From a virus, in the IMG/VR virus record IMGVR_UViG_3300043775_000017, positions 1-31,827 of that record: 31,827 nt of DNA. The stretch is one strand, 5' to 3'. The position numbers and the translations under genes are program-made. The notes beneath the pieces were generated by a model. The model was not told the origin of the DNA. It searched no databases and worked only from the letters and a program-made list of their open reading frames with translations. Positions 1,271-31,827 of the stretch are shown here, piece after piece; within the stretch, counting starts at the first letter, position 1; the number at the start of each line of letters is the position of its first letter.

Positions 1271-1416
1271 AGACCAATCATTCCTAGTAATTTATTCACG
1301 ATCTTGTCTGACAAGTCGTCAGGCAAAAACTTGAGAAATCCAAGCACCCACCAAGCAATGCAAAGCCTGACAAAGACTTTGAGGAATAAGTCAAATTGCT
1401 TTTGGTACTCATTCAC
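1267..1416 (-). CDS. Small membrane protein in the lysis cassette (49 aa, GTG start)
   Basis: A 49-aa ORF starting at GTG (1416-1414) and ending at TGA (1269-1267). It fills the otherwise empty gap between its neighbours: GTGA overlaps the upstream stop and ATGA overlaps the downstream start. AAGGTG lies 6 nt before the GTG. The product begins MNEYQKQFDL and has a hydrophobic, tryptophan-containing segment (about residues 11-31) followed by a short amphipathic tail ending LLGMIGL. The tight coupling on both sides argues that it is translated. Function is unknown; a small holin/pinholin or lysis accessory protein is a reasonable guess from position and topology. Confidence 0.65.
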   Translation of the reverse strand: MNEYQKQFDLFLKVFVRLCIAWWVLGFLKFLPDDLSDKIVNKLLGMIGL

Positions 1417-1907
1417 CGACCACACCTTGTCTTGGCGCACAAATCTTGTATTTCAGCAATGCCCCAACCAATTGCACCAAGAAGCATTACGATCACAACA
1501 ACACCAACCGCCCATGCCATATATTCTTCTTCTTCTTCTTTTCTTTTCTTTTCTTCTGCCTTGGCTTGTCTGGCTAAATGAGCATCTTCAACATCCATCT
1601 GTTGCTGACGCTGCTTAATCTTTTGCCACACATCAGCACGACCAGTGGCCTGAAACAGCAACATCAATTCGGCCTCAAAACGCTTTGCCTCATCAAGCGC
1701 CATCTCGATTTGAAGTGCAGTTCCTAAGTTTGATTTGTTGCCAGATCGTTTAGCCTCAACCATTGCCTTTGTTGCAACGCTTTTAGCATCAAACATCTTG
1801 GCGATAGACGGTGCTAAACCAGCCAGATCATTTGCGACCTTGCTGGCTTTTTTGACTACGCTGATTGCACTTTGTAATCCTGCAAGCGCTGTTATGGGGT
1901 CAATCAT
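1413..1907 (-). CDS. Membrane protein with coiled coil, spanin-like or structural, unknown
   Basis: 164 aa from the ATG at 1907, which overlaps the preceding stop as ATGA (the in-frame codon at 1928 lies inside the upstream gene). It begins MIDPITALAG, a start seen in many phage virion-associated or lysis-region proteins. A helical alanine/lysine-rich region (about 10-90) is followed by a highly charged coiled coil with a run of glutamates (about 95-129), then one strong transmembrane helix (about 131-151) and a short tail with two cysteines. The coiled coil joined to a membrane anchor resembles an inner-membrane spanin in general design, although the anchor is C-terminal. Function is not established. 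Confidence 0.6.
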   Translation of the reverse strand: MIDPITALAGLQSAISVVKKASKVANDLAGLAPSIAKMFDAKSVATKAMVEAKRSGNKSNLGTALQIEMALDEAKRFEAELMLLFQATGRADVWQKIKQRQQQMDVEDAHLARQAKAEEKKRKEEEEEYMAWAVGVVVIVMLLGAIGWGIAEIQDLCAKTRCGR

Positions 1908-2047
1908 TTCCTTACAACCTTTACCCATTCAAGGCAAACAACCTTCCGGTTGTAAACATCACCTGTCCACGCCCACCTCACACAACGGTACTCGACTTTT
2001 TCTGAAGTTCCTGTTAACAGAAACAATGGCAAAAGAAGCCAAAGCAT
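1904..2047 (-). CDS. Small exported or membrane protein of the lysis cassette (47 aa)
   Basis: A 47-aa ORF from ATG 2047 to TGA 1906-1904. The N-terminal 13 residues are a leucine-rich hydrophobic stretch typical of a signal sequence, followed by a compact domain with two cysteines and the pattern CVRWAWTGDVYNRKVVCLEW. I recognise this Cys-x-Trp...Tyr-Asn-Arg-Lys...Cys-Leu-Glu-Trp pattern as recurring in small phage proteins, but it has no known function. It starts 8 nt after the XhlA-like gene stops, and its stop overlaps the next start (ATGA). The lysis-cassette location suggests an outer-membrane spanin-like or periplasmic accessory part. No lipobox cysteine follows the leader, so a classical Rz1 lipoprotein is not supported. 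Confidence 0.68.
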   Translation of the reverse strand: MLWLLLPLFLLTGTSEKVEYRCVRWAWTGDVYNRKVVCLEWVKVVRK

Positions 2048-2910: not shown

Positions 2911-4803
2911 TCACGTCCAAGCTACGGTTAACTTATTATTGTTAACGTCTGTTACTCCTGAAACACCTCCAGCAATAGTAACAAATAACGCTCCAATAGT
3001 CCCTGTTTTTATTAACAAATTATTGCTACTAATAACGCCAGCAAGTATGCTTGCCGTTACTACTGGGTTTATATCAATAATAGATTCAACCAAGTCTGTT
3101 CTAGCATTGTTGCCAGTTATATTAAAAGTTTGAACATCTTTTATTTCAATTTTTTCACTTGTGGTATTACCAGTAATAACAGCCGTTAATGCTTTTGAAA
3201 TTACAGTCTGCCCAGAAATTAAACAGTTGTTTGAAATAACAACTTGACCTATTTCTGAAGATGCCCCGTTAACAGTAATATTTCCGCCAATAAAAGAGTT
3301 TTCGGAAACAATAATATTGCAAGTATTATTTTGATCTGCCGTTATTCCCCCTCCAATTTTATTGTGGCTAAAAATAAGTTTTCCATCAGCAATAATTTGA
3401 CAAAGAATAGAACCATCAATAGAGCAGTTGATTACTGACATATCTGTTGATGTTTCGGTTACACCAGTATTTCCAGGTATTGCAAACGTAATGTTTGCTG
3501 TTCCACTGCTACCATTTAAAACAACTTTATCTACTACGCTAATATTTGGGCGCTCTATGGTAATTCCCCCATGAGACATAAAACCATTTATCAACCTAAC
3601 ATCAGCATCCGCCGCCGTGTTAGGTAAATACAGCATTGAGATAGCATTCTGGTAACTTACTGGTAAACCAGATATGTAAAAATTACTGATAGTAACCGCT
3701 GCGTTTCCAAGCAAATTACCGCGAATTATTTTATTTATTTTTGCTGTTGATGGGTCTGATAGTAAAACAACATTATTGAAGTTTGTTTGACTTCCTGATG
3801 AGGCAAAAATTTGTACAGAAGAAGAATCCAAAGCATAATCGCGTGAGTTTCTGTCAATAATCCAAACGAAAAGATTGCTCACGTTTGACGTATTGCAATC
3901 TTCTAAGAAAAATGCCCCTGATGGATTATTAGAAAACGCAATACCACTTCCGTTAATGATAAAAATGTTGTTTGCGTTAAATGATCTATTTCTATCTGCG
4001 GTTACACCGCAAGAAGCGTAGTTTCTTACAATTGCATTGTTTAACGCAAAATCACCGTGCGAAACAATAAAATTAAATGAACCTTGGGGGGCGTAAGGGT
4101 CAGCTCTAACTTTTGAAACAGTATCAACTAAAAAACTTGATGGCATTAGCCCAATGTCTTCAGCATAAACATTGTTGACTAGAGTGCGTCCATTTTGAGT
4201 TACCCCATCGTCAGGCGAATGGTAAACATGAAAAGTTTTATTGCTTATGTTTTCATACTCACAGTCGTCAATAAACACAGTACCGTAAGTACCAATTTCA
4301 ATACACGCATCAGCATGAACATTGTAAAAATTTACATTATTAATTTTTACCGTTGTACTGATGTTATAAGCGGTCACTAAAAATACTGGAACAAGCGTAG
4401 GTCTAATACTGTCATATCCACCAAAACTCGAAAAAACAGTCCATGTTTCTAGCCCGACTTTATAAGTTCCGCGACCACCGTCAACAATTACATCTTTTAA
4501 TTCGACAGTCATTGCTGTCGTTCCAGAGCCAGCATTTAATGCAAAACGTCCTTGATTGGCGTAGTCACTATTAAAAACAAATTTTGCGTTACATAGTTTG
4601 AACGTACTTGAAGTTCCATTAATAACAGAAGTAATTTTGTAAGTTTGGCTATTTCCGTCAATCCATTGGTTTACGCCACAAGCGTTAACTGCGGCTTGAA
4701 TTGCAGCAGTATCGTCAGCCACACCATCACCAACAGCACCAAAATCCAATAGACTGATTGGTGCGCCCTCAATCAATGAGTACGAAACTTTTGTTAAGGG
4801 CAT
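2911..4803 (-). CDS. Tailspike with pectate-lyase-type beta-helix
   Basis: 630 aa from the ATG at 4803, with GGAGA 7 nt upstream. The N-terminus holds the pectate-lyase-3/GH28-like signature SLLDFGAVGDGVADDTAAIQ (about residues 17-36), which opens the right-handed parallel beta-helix of phage tailspikes. The rest is a long series of short strands rich in Asn, Ile, Val and Ser, with NN/NVS turns, as expected for beta-helix rungs. Known role of the family: binding and often cleaving surface polysaccharide. The P22-type head-binding domain is not fused here but encoded at 5336-5821. Base composition is clearly AT-richer than the flanking genes, consistent with import of this receptor module. Catalytic residues cannot be assigned by eye. 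Confidence 0.82.
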   Translation of the reverse strand: MPLTKVSYSLIEGAPISLLDFGAVGDGVADDTAAIQAAVNACGVNQWIDGNSQTYKITSVINGTSSTFKLCNAKFVFNSDYANQGRFALNAGSGTTAMTVELKDVIVDGGRGTYKVGLETWTVFSSFGGYDSIRPTLVPVFLVTAYNISTTVKINNVNFYNVHADACIEIGTYGTVFIDDCEYENISNKTFHVYHSPDDGVTQNGRTLVNNVYAEDIGLMPSSFLVDTVSKVRADPYAPQGSFNFIVSHGDFALNNAIVRNYASCGVTADRNRSFNANNIFIINGSGIAFSNNPSGAFFLEDCNTSNVSNLFVWIIDRNSRDYALDSSSVQIFASSGSQTNFNNVVLLSDPSTAKINKIIRGNLLGNAAVTISNFYISGLPVSYQNAISMLYLPNTAADADVRLINGFMSHGGITIERPNISVVDKVVLNGSSGTANITFAIPGNTGVTETSTDMSVINCSIDGSILCQIIADGKLIFSHNKIGGGITADQNNTCNIIVSENSFIGGNITVNGASSEIGQVVISNNCLISGQTVISKALTAVITGNTTSEKIEIKDVQTFNITGNNARTDLVESIIDINPVVTASILAGVISSNNLLIKTGTIGALFVTIAGGVSGVTDVNNNKLTVAWT

Positions 4804-5821: not shown

Positions 5822-7747
5822 TTATTTATTCCCCAAAGGTTGCAAAGCCTGTCTAACTCTGTTTCTGACTTCACGATTTTTGACGTATTTAGATGCTTCC
5901 CTCAAAGCTGTGACTGCTGGTGCTGGTATTCCAGTTAAACCAAAAGTCATCACAGAGTCTAAAGCAACTTGCAAAGCTGATGCTGTATTTGAAAAATTTA
6001 TCGCACCAGGTGGTGCTGTGTAAATATCAATCGCTATTTCACCAAGGTCTCTAATTTGTTGCGCTTGCTTTTTGCCATACAAGCCTTCGAGCTTGCCTTC
6101 TCTATCCAAAGACCGAATGACACTGTTTAATTTGTCAGGGGAAACTAATGCTTGCCCACGTTCATCTCTTTGGGCTGTTGACAAGGATTTATTGATAATG
6201 TAACGAATTGTGTTGGACTTCAATTCATTCCATGCCTGTTTGCCTTCCGGCCCTGCCGTGAGCAAAGTTTTCCTGACTTTGTTCATTTCTTCAAGTGGGG
6301 CATTGATAATGATTTTGTCAAAGACATCATCAAAAGCAATAACACGCTCGTCAGTGCCTCGTTTGGTTGACAGAAGTTTTGCTGTCAATCCTACGTTTTC
6401 AAACTCATTGGCAAAATCCTGACGCAATTTTCGGGCTGCCTTGTAAGATTCGCCACCTTTACCTTCAGTTCCAGCATCAATTGCGGAATTGATTTTTCTT
6501 GCCATCAAAGACTCTCGTCTGTTTGTCCAGTCGGTAGCCTCATTGACAAATTGTCTGAGCAATTCAGTATCGTCAATGGATTTGGCTTGTGCAATCAAGT
6601 TGCCATCTGCATCTTCTACCAATACACCAAGCCTAATTGCTTCTTTGCGAATTGGTGCAACATTTGGCGCAACGCCTTCAAAACGCTGAACATCTGCCGC
6701 AGTTGTTGCCAACTCATTCAGAGTAACTGGCTCAAGCATAGAACCATCTTCTCTGGCCTTTGTATAGGCATCACGAATTTTTCTTCTTTGCACTTCGGCT
6801 TTATTGACAACGGCTTTATCTACGGCTTTGCCAATGTCTCTTGCATCTGCCAGCAATGGTTCAGTACGATCAACCATCGCATCAAATTGCTGAATTAAAT
6901 TTGCTGTTTGATTGCTGACTCGTTCACGCAAAGGTGCTCCAGCCTCACCTAATTTAGCAGTTTCTTTTTCAAACTGAAGGTCTGCAAAATTTCTTGTCCT
7001 CTGACCAGCAGTTAATCCAGCAGGGCCTGTAAAACCTAATTGTTCCGCAACCGTTACTCTTTGTAACTCTGCTGGAGTTGCTGCCGCACCAACAGAAACA
7101 CGCCCACCAGCCGCTGTTGGGGTTGGAGGGGTCTCCATACCTAAAGCCTCACGAACGGCTGTTGTAGCCGCTTGTACAGGCTTTGCAATAGCCTCTCCAG
7201 TTGCTTGTGCCGCTTGCCGTGTCGCAGCCGCACCACGCTGGGCTGTTGCTTGCGTAATGGGGGCGGCACTTCTAATTGCTTGTGCGGTCGCAGTAGGTGC
7301 TGCAATAGTTGGCAAAACAGGCGGTAAAACTTCACCCAAAAATTGACCAGTAGCCTGCACCATTTCTTGGCCTGCTTCTGTCCTTGGTTGATAAGTTAAT
7401 GCCTGCGCTCCTTCTGCTGCGGCTCTTTCAACCGCACGAGCCGCTTGTGGTGTGCCAAACTCACCAGATAAAATTTGTTCTGTCAGACCTTTACCAGCGC
7501 CAATAATTGTGCCTAGCGTACCGCCTGTTGCGGCTGTTCCCAAAGTTAAGGCGGTTTCACCAGCACCAATAATACGACCTAGCACACTTGGCGTTGGTGG
7601 TACAGGCGCAAGTTGCTGTCGAGTACGAGCAGTGGTTTCTTCTGCTTTTGCAATTTCATAGGCTTGAGCCACAGTATCAAACGCAGGCGTACCACGTTTA
7701 TCCGAGTTTCTTACAATCCATGCTGCGTATTCGTCTGCGGTTGCCAT
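5822..7747 (-). CDS. Internal virion / DNA ejection protein (P22 gp16-like)
   Basis: 641 aa, close to the 609 aa of P22 gp16 and in the equivalent position, last of three ejection genes. The N-terminal region (about 60-210) is glycine/alanine-rich with long stretches of low charge that could insert into membrane (LGRIIGAGETALTLGTAATG); the rest is a charged alpha-helical region rich in Arg, Glu and Lys. Known role of the family: ejection with the DNA to help genome passage across the envelope. The start has GGAGG 7 nt upstream and abuts the previous stop. Assigned mainly by gene order, size and composition. Confidence 0.65.
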   Translation of the reverse strand: MATADEYAAWIVRNSDKRGTPAFDTVAQAYEIAKAEETTARTRQQLAPVPPTPSVLGRIIGAGETALTLGTAATGGTLGTIIGAGKGLTEQILSGEFGTPQAARAVERAAAEGAQALTYQPRTEAGQEMVQATGQFLGEVLPPVLPTIAAPTATAQAIRSAAPITQATAQRGAAATRQAAQATGEAIAKPVQAATTAVREALGMETPPTPTAAGGRVSVGAAATPAELQRVTVAEQLGFTGPAGLTAGQRTRNFADLQFEKETAKLGEAGAPLRERVSNQTANLIQQFDAMVDRTEPLLADARDIGKAVDKAVVNKAEVQRRKIRDAYTKAREDGSMLEPVTLNELATTAADVQRFEGVAPNVAPIRKEAIRLGVLVEDADGNLIAQAKSIDDTELLRQFVNEATDWTNRRESLMARKINSAIDAGTEGKGGESYKAARKLRQDFANEFENVGLTAKLLSTKRGTDERVIAFDDVFDKIIINAPLEEMNKVRKTLLTAGPEGKQAWNELKSNTIRYIINKSLSTAQRDERGQALVSPDKLNSVIRSLDREGKLEGLYGKKQAQQIRDLGEIAIDIYTAPPGAINFSNTASALQVALDSVMTFGLTGIPAPAVTALREASKYVKNREVRNRVRQALQPLGNK

Positions 7748-22831: not shown

Positions 22832-22861
22832 ATATTACACATTTTGCATTACTTCTGTCAA
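22832..22861 (-). promoter_or_regulatory. Candidate promoter for the late (terminase-onward) genes
   Basis: On the minus strand a perfect TTGACA (22861-22856) is separated by 18 nt from TAATAT (22837-22832, four of six matches to TATAAT). The predicted start would fall near 22825, giving a leader of about 17 nt before the small-terminase ATG at 22808. It lies within the last codons of the ParB-MTase gene. The -10 is weak, so this is a candidate only. Confidence 0.4.
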
Positions 22862-24040
22862 CAAAGTGGCTTTCTTGCCTGTGAAGTCTTCCCATCGCTT
22901 TACGATCACATCGCAATACTTTGGGTCTAATTCCATCAGCCTAGCGTGTCTTCCATGCTTTTCTGCTGCCAATAATGTTGTGCCGCTTCCACCAAACAAA
23001 TCCAAAACAATGTCGCCACCTTTTGTATTGTTAAGCATTTGATACTCAAACAAAGCAACTGGTTTCATTGTTGGATGTTCACCGCTTCGGCTTGGTTTAT
23101 CAAATTCCAAAATGGTGGTTTGCTTACGGTCTGCCGCCCAAAGGTGTCCAGCACCGTCTTTCCACCCATAAAGACAAGGCTCGTGCTTCCAGTGGTAATC
23201 CTGTCGGCCCATGACCATGCTTGACTTTTTCCATATTAAACATTGACGTACTTTCCAGCCAGCGTCAGTGCAAGCGCCTCGAAAATTAAAACCCTCACTA
23301 TCAGCATGCCAAATGTAAAAAACTGCGCCAGCTTTCATTACTAAGTCAGCAGTAACAAATGCGTCTCTTAAAAACTGACGAAACTGGTCATTTTCCATGT
23401 TGTCGTTTTTAATTTTCAAAGCATCCTTTGTTTTACCCTCATAAGCAACGTTGTAAGGTGGATCAGTTAACAGCATATCTACCCCCCCCCCACTTGTAAG
23501 TTTCGTGACAGCATCCACGCTTGTGGAATCTCCGCACATCAGGCGGTGGTTGCCAAGTTGATAAATGTCGCCCAGCTGAGTTGTTGGCTCGTCAGGAATA
23601 TCAGGAACGGCATCTTCGTCTGTCAACCCCTCCACCACTTCAGGTTCAAGCAGTGCGCCTAGTTCTTTGGGGTCAAAGCCCAGCATTTCTAGTGCAAACC
23701 CATCTGCCAGCAAGTCGTTTAACTCGATGGTCAGCATTTCATTGTCCCACCCTGCATTGAGTGCCAGGCGGTTGTCGGCAATGATATAAGCCTTGCGCTG
23801 GGTCTCTGTCAGGTCTTTTAACTCGATGGTGGGGACTTCTTTGTAGCCCAGCTTTCTTGCTGCCATCAGCCGCCCATGCCCTGCAATGATGCCGTTCTCC
23901 CCATCTACCAATATCGGATTAGTCCAGCCGAATTCTTTGATGCTTGAGGCAATCTGGGCTATTTGCTCATCAGAGTGGGTGCGGCTGTTATTGACATAAG
24001 GTATCAACTTGTCCACAGGCTTTTGCACAATTTTTAGCAT
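22835..24040 (-). CDS. ParB-like domain fused to DNA N6/N4 methyltransferase (beta class)
   Basis: 401 aa from the ATG at 24040, which has GAGGA 4 nt upstream (the longer frame to 24136 lacks a site and would cross a terminator). Residues about 5-90 are a ParB/sulfiredoxin-like domain with GENGIIAGHGRLMAARKLGY. The methyltransferase has catalytic DPPY at 193-196 (LLTDPPYNV) and the SAM-binding VLDLFGGSGT at about 345-354, order IV then I, hence beta class. It should methylate adenine N6 or cytosine N4; no cognate nuclease is present, so host-restriction evasion is likely. A G10 tract encodes Gly184-186, seven residues before DPPY; any change not divisible by three would remove catalysis. Confidence 0.9.
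   Translation of the reverse strand: MLKIVQKPVDKLIPYVNNSRTHSDEQIAQIASSIKEFGWTNPILVDGENGIIAGHGRLMAARKLGYKEVPTIELKDLTETQRKAYIIADNRLALNAGWDNEMLTIELNDLLADGFALEMLGFDPKELGALLEPEVVEGLTDEDAVPDIPDEPTTQLGDIYQLGNHRLMCGDSTSVDAVTKLTSGGGVDMLLTDPPYNVAYEGKTKDALKIKNDNMENDQFRQFLRDAFVTADLVMKAGAVFYIWHADSEGFNFRGACTDAGWKVRQCLIWKKSSMVMGRQDYHWKHEPCLYGWKDGAGHLWAADRKQTTILEFDKPSRSGEHPTMKPVALFEYQMLNNTKGGDIVLDLFGGSGTTLLAAEKHGRHARLMELDPKYCDVIVKRWEDFTGKKATLLTEVMQNV
23482..23491 (-). repeat. G10 homopolymer inside the ParB-MTase gene
   Basis: Ten consecutive C on the plus strand (G on the coding strand) lie just upstream of the DPPY catalytic motif. With ten G the frame is intact (…TSGGGVD…). Loss or gain of one base would shift the frame before the active site. 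Poly-G of this length is slippage-prone in bacteria. Confidence 0.85.
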
Positions 24041-25829: not shown

Positions 25830-25929
25830 AGTCTCCTGTAAGTTCAAGCGCTCTTGTGATGACAAACTCGCTAAATTGTTGTCCTTCTTTGGCTCGATCA
25901 AGAATTCTGTTTGCTTCATAGTGATTCAC
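25693..25929 (-). CDS. Small phage protein (frame X), N-terminal part conserved
   Basis: 78 aa from GTG at 25929, directly adjoining the stop (25932-25930) of the overprinted frame at 25930-26787. GGAGA lies 8 nt before the GTG. The N-terminal 36 residues, NHYEANRILDRAKEGQQF then SEFVITRALELTGDYEE, read as a known small-protein pattern (EAN-x-ILD...ALELTGD). The C-terminal half lies under frame Y and looks unconserved, rich in Gly, Ser and Pro. Probably a real gene whose tail overlaps the following gene. Confidence 0.55.
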   Translation of the reverse strand: MNHYEANRILDRAKEGQQFSEFVITRALELTGDYEEQRGGRVDQTLPQESLGGGAGRSPILVATNPSGHCQEARPSGC

Positions 25930-26791
25930 TTAGGATTCTCCATGCTGTTGCGGCACACAATGGAACTTGTCCATTTCCAATGGCTTTAAGTCTGTCCACC
26001 CTAGAGGCCACCCCATCAGCCACTCTACCCACATCGGGTTCAGCTTTCCACCATTCCCCGCACCCATCAATCTGGCTTCTTCTCTTGTTGTATTCTTGTT
26101 CAGTAGTTCCCATGAACCTGTCCCACCACACATACCTGCTGTTCTTGGTGTCGGCCAATTCTGCATCCTTTTGGGAGTTAAACTGCCTCCAATCATTGCC
26201 TCCGCTTCTTCCAATGTTGTTGTTCCTGAATCCACCATTTTTCTCATTTGCAGAATCATCCCTTCTGATCTTGCTTGAGATGCTGTTGGAGTTGGCCAAT
26301 TTTTTTCCGACAATCCAGATTCTGTCCCTCTGATGGTTTGCTCCAACATTCGCTGCTCCCAACACTCCCCATCTCGCATCAAACCCCATTGAGGCCAAGT
26401 CTCCAAGAACTCTTCCAAGTCCCCTAGAAGTGAGCATTGGTGAGTTTTCCACGAACACGAATCCTGGTCGAACTTCACAAATGATCCTCGCCATTTCTCG
26501 CCACATTCCGCTTCTTTCTCCATCGATCCCCCCCCCCCCCCCAGCGGCAGAGATGTCTTGGCATGGAAAGCCGCCAGATACAACGTCAACAATTCCTCGC
26601 CACGGGTTTCCGTCAAAGGTTTGTACGTCATCCCAAATCGGGAAAGGCAGGAGAAGTCCGTCATTTTGTCTGGCGCACAGTACGCTTGCTGGGTAGGCTT
26701 CCCATTCGACTGCACAGACTGTTCTCCATCCGAGGAGGTGTCCACCAAGTATTCCTCCACCAGCGCCTGCGAAAAGAGCCAACTCATTCAT
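25916..26791 (-). CDS. C5-cytosine DNA methyltransferase (Dcm-like)
   Basis: 291 aa. Motif I LFAGAGGG (about residues 6-13), catalytic motif IV GGFPCQDIS with Cys77, motif VI ENS (115-117), motif VIII QRDR (154-157), and motifs IX-X RLKAIGNGQVP (about 267-277). A short variable region (165-250) would be the target-recognition domain. It transfers methyl groups to cytosine C5. A G15 tract encodes Gly84-88 between motifs IV and VI. The ATG at 26791 overlaps the upstream stop, but its GGGAG is only 3 nt away. Almost the whole gene is also open in the +1 frame (separate entry). No restriction enzyme is adjacent, so it is likely an orphan protective enzyme. Confidence 0.92.
   Translation of the reverse strand: MNELALFAGAGGGILGGHLLGWRTVCAVEWEAYPASVLCARQNDGLLLPFPIWDDVQTFDGNPWRGIVDVVSGGFPCQDISAAGGGGGIDGERSGMWREMARIICEVRPGFVFVENSPMLTSRGLGRVLGDLASMGFDARWGVLGAANVGANHQRDRIWIVGKKLANSNSISSKIRRDDSANEKNGGFRNNNIGRSGGNDWRQFNSQKDAELADTKNSRYVWWDRFMGTTEQEYNKRRSQIDGCGEWWKAEPDVGRVADGVASRVDRLKAIGNGQVPLCAATAWRILSESL
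25930..26787 (-). CDS. Overprinted +1-frame ORF with phage-protein signatures (frame B of the C5 MTase gene)
   Basis: 285 codons open in the +1 frame inside the methyltransferase gene, starting at an ATG 4 nt after the MTase ATG and 7 nt after GGGAG, a better spacing. It does not look like noise: it contains SCLSRFGMTYKPLTETRGEE, CGEKWRGSFVKFDQDSCSWK, ETWPQWGLMRDGE, two NWPTP motifs (about 163 and 210) and the C-terminal LNPMWVEWLMGWPLGWTDLK. I recognise this pattern as a family annotated next to, or fused with, phage methyltransferases. The stop adjoins the GTG of frame X. It may be a true overlapping gene, a conserved shadow of the MTase, or reached by slippage at G15. Function unknown. Confidence 0.5.
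   Translation of the reverse strand: MSWLFSQALVEEYLVDTSSDGEQSVQSNGKPTQQAYCAPDKMTDFSCLSRFGMTYKPLTETRGEELLTLYLAAFHAKTSLPLGGGGGSMEKEAECGEKWRGSFVKFDQDSCSWKTHQCSLLGDLEEFLETWPQWGLMRDGECWEQRMLEQTIRGTESGLSEKNWPTPTASQARSEGMILQMRKMVDSGTTTLEEAEAMIGGSLTPKRMQNWPTPRTAGMCGGTGSWELLNKNTTREEARLMGAGNGGKLNPMWVEWLMGWPLGWTDLKPLEMDKFHCVPQQHGES
26528..26542 (-). repeat. G15 homopolymer inside the C5 MTase gene
   Basis: Fifteen consecutive C on the plus strand, i.e. G15 on the coding strand, encode five glycines in both overlapping frames. With 15 both frames continue. With 14, the MTase frame would pass into the C-terminal half of frame B; with 16, frame B would pass into the C-terminal half of the MTase. This is the longest homopolymer noticed in the window. 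Confidence 0.88.
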
Positions 26792-31375: not shown

Positions 31376-31827
31376 GGCTCTTTCGTCAATTCTGCGTTTT
31401 TGCAAGCCTTTGAGAACTTTGCCGCCAGCCATGCAGTACTTGAGAAGTTCCTCGGCAGCGCCCTCCATGTCTCCCCTAAGTACCTTTTGGCGCAGGGTTG
31501 ACCTCTGGAGTGTGCCTAGCCCTACATTGAAAGAAAATGAAACCAGTGCGTCAAACTGTCCTTGAGTAAGAGGCACAGGACAATAAGTAGCCACGCCTTT
31601 CTCAAACCTAGTAAGGTCTGCCCTAAGTATTGCATCGACTTCCTCCATTGAGTGTTTACGCATGGCCTCTGGCGGTGGCACAAAGGCATCCCGCTGATCA
31701 ATCTTGAGTTTGCCTTGCTCTGGAAACATCACATGACCAACCCCTACAGTCCACAGCTTTGCAGGGCATTTATAGGGATTCTGCCTCACGCCCTCGTGAT
31801 GGCGAATCATGTGCAAGCACTTGTCTG
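31361..31827 (-). CDS. Endolysin (GH24 lysozyme), C-terminal part; continues at the left end of the window
   Basis: This is the main part of the lysozyme gene; the first bases of the ORF are at 137-128 on the left end. Within this part are Glu15 in IRHHEGVRQNPY, Cys24, Thr30 and the TVGVGH loop, then a helical lobe with the GH24 signature LTQGQFDALVSFSFNVGLGT and LLKYCMAGGKVLKGLQKRR, ending ALFLS. It cleaves peptidoglycan glycosidic bonds to release virions. Full length when circularised is 158 aa. The stop converges on the zinc-finger gene. Confidence 0.93.
   Translation of the reverse strand, partial: DKCLHMIRHHEGVRQNPYKCPAKLWTVGVGHVMFPEQGKLKIDQRDAFVPPPEAMRKHSMEEVDAILRADLTRFEKGVATYCPVPLTQGQFDALVSFSFNVGLGTLQRSTLRQKVLRGDMEGAAEELLKYCMAGGKVLKGLQKRRIDERALFLS
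31701..31827. repeat. Right copy of 127-bp terminal direct repeat
   Basis: Identical to bases 1-127. Merging the copies restores one intact endolysin frame and gives a 31,700-bp circle. A circularly permuted, terminally redundant headful genome, as the P22-like terminase predicts, would assemble in this way. Confidence 0.93.

Follow-up and report, generated by a model that had tools for sequence, protein, structure and literature searches.

The question raised by this locus is why a phage gene for a DNA methyltransferase carries ten consecutive guanines just ahead of its catalytic motif, and whether the length of that run acts as a switch. The window, by which we mean the entire stretch of DNA analysed (31,827 nucleotides; IMG/VR record IMGVR_UViG_3300043775_000017), has a 127-base direct terminal repeat at positions 1–127 and 31701–31827, so the record looks complete and circular. 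Pfam, profile and similarity matches identified genes for a P22-type portal, terminase, head and endolysin, and a tRNA search found no tRNA genes in the window. Most of the window gave zero megablast matches to named phages, which leaves it without a cultured close relative, and no P22-type portal was found in the Polynucleobacter, Parasutterella and Methylobacillus genomes that bear related methyltransferases. Among neighbours of the methyltransferase genes, matches were obtained to terminase, HNH/DUF968, NinB, RusA and a primosomal protein; several neighbours had no match, and no named restriction enzyme was among those matched.

Position of the G10 tract in the N6/N4 methyltransferase

The gene (22835–24040, minus strand) encodes an orphan-type DNA methyltransferase of 401 amino acids in which a ParB_N domain (PF02195) is fused to an N6_N4_Mtase domain (PF01555). 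The protein matches phrog_498 (E 6e-177), and Foldseek matches with E of about 1e-9 or better include CcrM, N4CMT, M1.HpyAVI and RsrI, among which both N6 and N4 enzymes are represented. The ParB_N domain spans residues 20–85 (23786–23983) and the N6_N4_Mtase domain residues 187–380 (22901–23482), both on the minus strand by Pfam assignment. The G10 tract (23482–23491, minus strand, read as C10 on the plus strand) encodes Gly184–Gly186 and the first base of Val187, with the whole methyltransferase domain downstream of it. Catalytic motif IV, DPPY (residues 193–196; 23453–23464, minus strand), begins seven residues beyond the last of these glycines, and translation placed tract and motif exactly where the first-pass annotation had put them. 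DPPY is invariant across a 44-sequence alignment of these enzymes, from which one copy with a stop codon (L040) was left out. The order of motifs, DPPY at residue 193 followed by DLFGGSG at 347–353, is that of the beta class, in which DPPY stands ahead of the FxGxG SAM motif; from family knowledge we take the DPPY to favour an N6 over an N4 product.

In the AlphaFold model (mean pLDDT 83), Gly184–186 form the turn between a helix (residues 175–181) and the strand (residues 187–192) that runs into DPPY. Placement of the run within this modeled turn suggests that an extra glycine would be tolerated, whereas any frameshift would remove the catalytic domain; one relative (L057) has four glycines at the site. 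No second long frame was found in the gene, the alternative frames containing 27 and 28 stops, and a switch at this position would thus be plain ON/OFF. Selection for glycine alone was considered as an explanation for the run and set aside, as tract-free relatives mostly have a single glycine at the site.

The G run compared with chance expectation

Only two G/C runs of at least 7 bases are present in the window, the G10 tract and a 15-base run at 26528–26542; the next longest G/C runs are 6, and there is also one T8. This run count bears out the earlier observation that the two longest runs both lie in methyltransferase genes near catalytic motifs, the G15 run following the PCQDISAA motif of a C5 methyltransferase. 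Dinucleotide-preserving shuffles predict 0.06 matches to G10 per window, against 7 observed (six of them contributed by the G15 run). When synonymous codons were resampled with the phage's own usage, the N6/N4 gene acquired a run of 10 or more with a probability of 0.0022 and the C5 gene one of 15 or more with a probability of 8e-5. Of the glycine codons, this phage uses GGG least often (70/520). A chance origin of the G10 run, doubted by the first-pass annotation, is unlikely on both tests.

Long runs were also concentrated in methyltransferase genes elsewhere. In a set of related loci (L003–L161) fetched by protein similarity, blind to poly-G and with the window's own copy excluded, the distinct G/C runs of 10 or more bases numbered 10. 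By inspection of the surrounding frames, 8 of them lie inside methyltransferase genes, whose share of the DNA is 13.7% (binomial P=4e-6). When viral contigs were scanned for G14, the runs in recognisable genes among the matches listed, again classed by inspection, comprised four C5 methyltransferases of the window's family, one type III-like methyltransferase and one clear other gene; the size of the methyltransferase bias is approximate in both cases, because the set of loci is centred on methyltransferases and the G14 scan is a sample. A G9 run in a PAPS-reductase-like gene (L090, about position 6689) is a possible tract outside the methyltransferases.

Tracts at the same site in relatives

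A pattern scan for G8 or longer ahead of the VDMxxTDPP codons found such a run at the N6/N4 site in 35 IMG/VR contigs, with lengths of 8–14. The frame of each was called by comparing the upstream open frame with the DPPY frame: 24 of 33 resolvable contigs were in frame and 9 were out of frame (L165, L170, L172, L175, L177, L179, L187, L192 and L193), counts that are non-independent since near-copies are included, and the remaining two lay too near a contig end. The occurrence of G8–G14 both in and out of frame supports the ON/OFF reading given to the run at first. Lengths are shared between different metagenomes, with G9 in L165 and in L179.

The first-pass annotation had also asked whether homologues keep the run or replace it with mixed glycine codons, and the answer is divided. 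The best 80 IMG/VR relatives, chosen by protein only, mostly have mixed codons at the site (for example, encoding DGQLVDMW), as do most of the more distant relatives, with several carrying a G run exactly there. The run extends beyond this assembly, to one large clade and several separate lineages. In a scan on the flanks only, with any insert allowed, the site was filled by G alone in 16 cases (9, 10 or 11 bases), by an interrupted run in one and by mixed codons in three. Among cultured or binned bacteria, the site holds G8 in frame in Streptococcus equinus prophage Javan213, G8 out of frame in Parasutterella secunda ET73 and G10 out of frame in a Methylobacillus MAG. On a tree of the catalytic domain built with the tract excluded, about 12 changes of the tract label are required, no fewer than 4 of them across well-supported branches, and one large clade mostly retains the tract; judged from this tree, the tract had several separate origins, that in the Streptococcus prophage included. 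Poly-G does not account for the methyltransferase genes annotated as split in prophages of Streptococcus pyogenes and in Mycobacterium phage Jinglebell, which were also inspected.

Length changes between near-identical genomes

Comparison of near-identical contigs located length changes at the tracts themselves. L165 (G9) and L187 (G11) differ over 1787 aligned bases by one mismatch and one indel, the indel being the N6/N4 tract; L174 and L185 (both G10) are about 95–99.6% like these two around the tract. The window and L182 (99.99% identical) differ over 9968 bases by one mismatch and two indels, one in the C5 tract (15 versus 13) and one in a TTC repeat at 1524, with the N6/N4 tract being G10 in both. 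This TTC-rich repeat (1524–1557), which lies inside a small ORF (1413–1928, minus strand), differs by one triplet between the two. Between L205 and L258, 5928 bases contain no mismatches and the sole difference is a C5 tract of 14 versus 15, and the C5 tracts of L260 and L263 are 13 and 15.

The finding of tract-length indels in such pairs ranks the tracts with the positions that change fastest in these genomes; the L182 comparison, in which the C5 tract differs while the N6/N4 tract is equal, indicates that the two vary separately, as the first-pass annotation had proposed for the two switches. At the level of contigs, the length variation it had looked for is present among relatives, where near-identical contigs differ, and absent from the window's own N6/N4 tract, which is G10 in all three near-identical contigs (3/3). 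Some of the out-of-frame lengths may be assembly errors, above all those of G13–G15.

Frame effects and selection on out-of-frame copies

Real out-of-frame contigs encounter a stop 0–55 nt past the N6/N4 tract, leaving the ParB_N half; the predicted OFF product would retain ParB_N and lack DPPY. In the OFF copies examined, the downstream catalytic half is nevertheless a full long open frame. L165 and L170, both OFF, differ in the catalytic half by 26 synonymous and 1 nonsynonymous changes, and dN/dS is about 0.01–0.05 for OFF copies in pairs with enough changes. Since nearly all differences are synonymous even between two OFF copies, the pattern is not one of decay, and on these substitution patterns the catalytic half of OFF copies is under purifying selection. 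The window and L038, L188, L191 and L193 have all kept a pure G run although synonymous sites between them are saturated.

An intact catalytic half in OFF contigs would also be expected if the tract acted at the RNA level, with slippage of polymerase or ribosome giving every genome a fixed mix of full-length and truncated protein, such that the tract sets dosage and not a heritable state. Transcriptional slippage is possible on long homopolymers, but near-identical genomes show heritable differences in DNA length, and in-frame lengths (24/33, near-copies counted) exceed the one-third share expected were frame irrelevant; we regard this explanation as unlikely, while noting that RNA-level slippage could blur the distinction between ON and OFF. 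The same selection data bear on the proposal that the run is a neutral homopolymer or an artefact, a chance run in a dispensable gene whose lengths reflect sequencing or assembly error or harmless drift. Sequencers have difficulty with homopolymers of 10–15, damage is tolerated in accessory phage genes, and mixed codons occupy the site in most distant homologues; against this stand the reuse of one site in separate lineages, retention of the tract at saturated synonymous divergence, strong purifying selection on OFF catalytic halves, concentration of long G/C runs in methyltransferases and the recurrence of equal lengths across metagenomes (G9 in L165 and L179), which together make it improbable. 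It is very improbable that the tract switches between fusion and fission, with one OFF frame ending at a TAG just past the run and restarting at an ATG two bases on to give separate ParB_N and methyltransferase proteins: G9 copies do stop directly after the tract, an ATG in the methyltransferase frame follows (GTAGATATG) and the G run sits at Shine-Dalgarno distance, but the restart product would begin MLLTDPPY and, by the structural model, be missing some of the strand and helix that precede DPPY, stops fall at other places in the remaining OFF frames, and TAG-free relatives also show OFF lengths.

Proposed model: a phase-variable orphan methyltransferase

We conclude, with a probability of about 0.8 for the explanation as a whole, that this orphan methyltransferase gene of N6-adenine type, carried by a phage, has in its G10 run a contingency (phase-variation) tract. 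As judged by sequence comparison, the gene and its run combine three properties of such a locus: an intragenic repeat that sets the frame, length polymorphism between near-identical genomes (seen in relatives and, in the window's own lineage, at the C5 tract) and a gene kept by selection. Slipped-strand mispairing during replication would add or remove Gs in the run. Lengths that keep the frame (10 here, elsewhere set by the flanking bases) are predicted to yield the full ParB_N-methyltransferase, and with other lengths translation would end within about 55 nt, giving the ParB_N half only, without DPPY or the SAM-binding motif. If the change is reversible, a phage population would be a mixture of ON and OFF genomes and, provided that the enzyme is active, ON phages would carry modified DNA and OFF phages would not. 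Methylated progeny may evade host restriction at the enzyme's sites, and unmethylated progeny may evade modification-dependent defences or be spared a cost. The C5 gene having its own tract, the two modifications would vary separately. The population probably hedges in this way between modified and unmodified DNA against bacterial defences, a counter-defence benefit that we propose from what is established about phage methyltransferases. Among the known genes in variable islands of cryoconite phages, methyltransferases are reported as the most frequent (PMC7468147), an observation that fits hedging without testing it.

Orphan methyltransferases of phages are well known, as are phase-variable methyltransferases of bacteria, which serve there as switches of defence and gene regulation. 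The aligned phage and prophage enzymes of phrog_498 share the ParB_N and N6_N4_Mtase fusion at 44–93% identity, but most of these are tract-free, with mixed codons at the site. In bacterial restriction-modification systems, for example those of Helicobacter pylori and Campylobacter, methyltransferases are phase-variable through poly-G or other simple repeats (PMC12003011, PMC4889913). The present locus resembles these in having an intragenic G tract of about 9–15 at which a frameshift would toggle the enzyme ON or OFF. It differs from them in its carrier, a small tailed phage in which no partner endonuclease is recognised, in the position of the tract, within the turn that shortly precedes DPPY in a beta-class enzyme fused to ParB, and in that two methyltransferase genes of one 31.8-kb phage have one tract each. 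Poly-G switching of methyltransferases encoded by phages was not described in the open-access papers searched, which is weak evidence of absence. What may be new is the combination, a phage orphan methyltransferase with a G tract as a widespread contingency locus, each part of which is known already. If the reading is correct, the occurrence of this bacterial device at matching catalytic-site positions in >100 viral contigs would mean that phages too bet-hedge the modification of their own DNA, and that a heritable counter-defence state is masked in consensus genomes, where annotation pipelines read it as broken genes. The reading yields predictions that are testable with existing reads and long-read methylomes.

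A companion tract in a dual-coded C5 methyltransferase gene

The second tract is found in a gene for a C5 cytosine methyltransferase of 291 amino acids (25916–26791, minus strand; PF00145, E 1e-29), which matches the HaeIII and HhaI methylases in the PDB and contains motifs I–VIII and X in an alpha-like frame. The G15 tract (26528–26542, minus strand) is positioned in the catalytic loop directly after PCQDISAA and, from the run count and the length variants of relatives, is a candidate companion switch. At the catalytic-loop site, at least 8 Gs are present in 78 contigs, 55 in frame, 21 out of frame and 2 unresolvable; a long frame follows in 13 of the 21 out-of-frame copies and an early stop in the other 8.

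A second ORF, of 285 amino acids, occupies the +1 frame of the C5 gene (25930–26787, minus strand) and is supported by open-frame and third-position tests; it is beta-like, has a motif-IX-like segment (NPMWVEWLMGWPLGWTDL) and matches phrog_1008, 'DNA methyltransferase', with E 3e-20. The +1 frame is stop-free over about 185 codons in 120 of 121 distinct relatives, where own-codon shuffles predict 3.2 and the +2 frame gives 5–22. At equal protein divergence, the difference at fourfold sites is 0.17 in the C5 gene versus 0.66 in the N6/N4 gene. Motif X is in frame 0 of all 121 relatives (121/121), and the motif-IX-like segment is in the +1 frame of 95/121. By these tests the +1 frame is not accidental; the gene is dual-coded and the second predicted protein is constrained. 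Because of this second predicted protein, the C5 'switch' is not simply ON/OFF. In Mycobacterium phage Firecracker, the two C5 parts are overlapping annotated genes, gp6 and gp5, with gp5 in the +1 frame.

In M.EcoHK31I, the large subunit has motifs I–VIII and X and the small subunit has motif IX (PMC3404938). By motif layout, the companion gene is similar to an alpha/beta enzyme of this type, with motifs I–VIII and X and the motif-IX-like segment split over two frames; it differs in that the C5 gene family has poly-G tracts at several sites and in that the second protein is predicted from the open frame and third-position constraint. A third tract site, just after C5 motif VIII, has 10–15 Gs in 24 contigs (including L274, L285, L331 and L485–L505), leading into frame 0 in 6, the +1 frame in 9 and a short frame in 9.

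These features suggest a broader and more tentative proposal, to which we give rather less than an even chance, that small environmental phages share a common strategy in which two methyltransferases switch separately, one a plain ON/OFF enzyme of N6 type and the other a dual-coded alpha/beta C5 enzyme. Tract length in the C5 gene would then decide whether the alpha chain is made in its normal form, continues into the beta frame or is truncated, allowing more than two modification states per phage.

Two further sites in C5 genes were noted. At motif I (GGILGG), poly-G is G9 in frame in L106–L111 and G8 out of frame in L116. Poly-C runs on the coding strand (C10 and C13) are found near the third site in L084 (about position 4551) and L142 (about position 3833).
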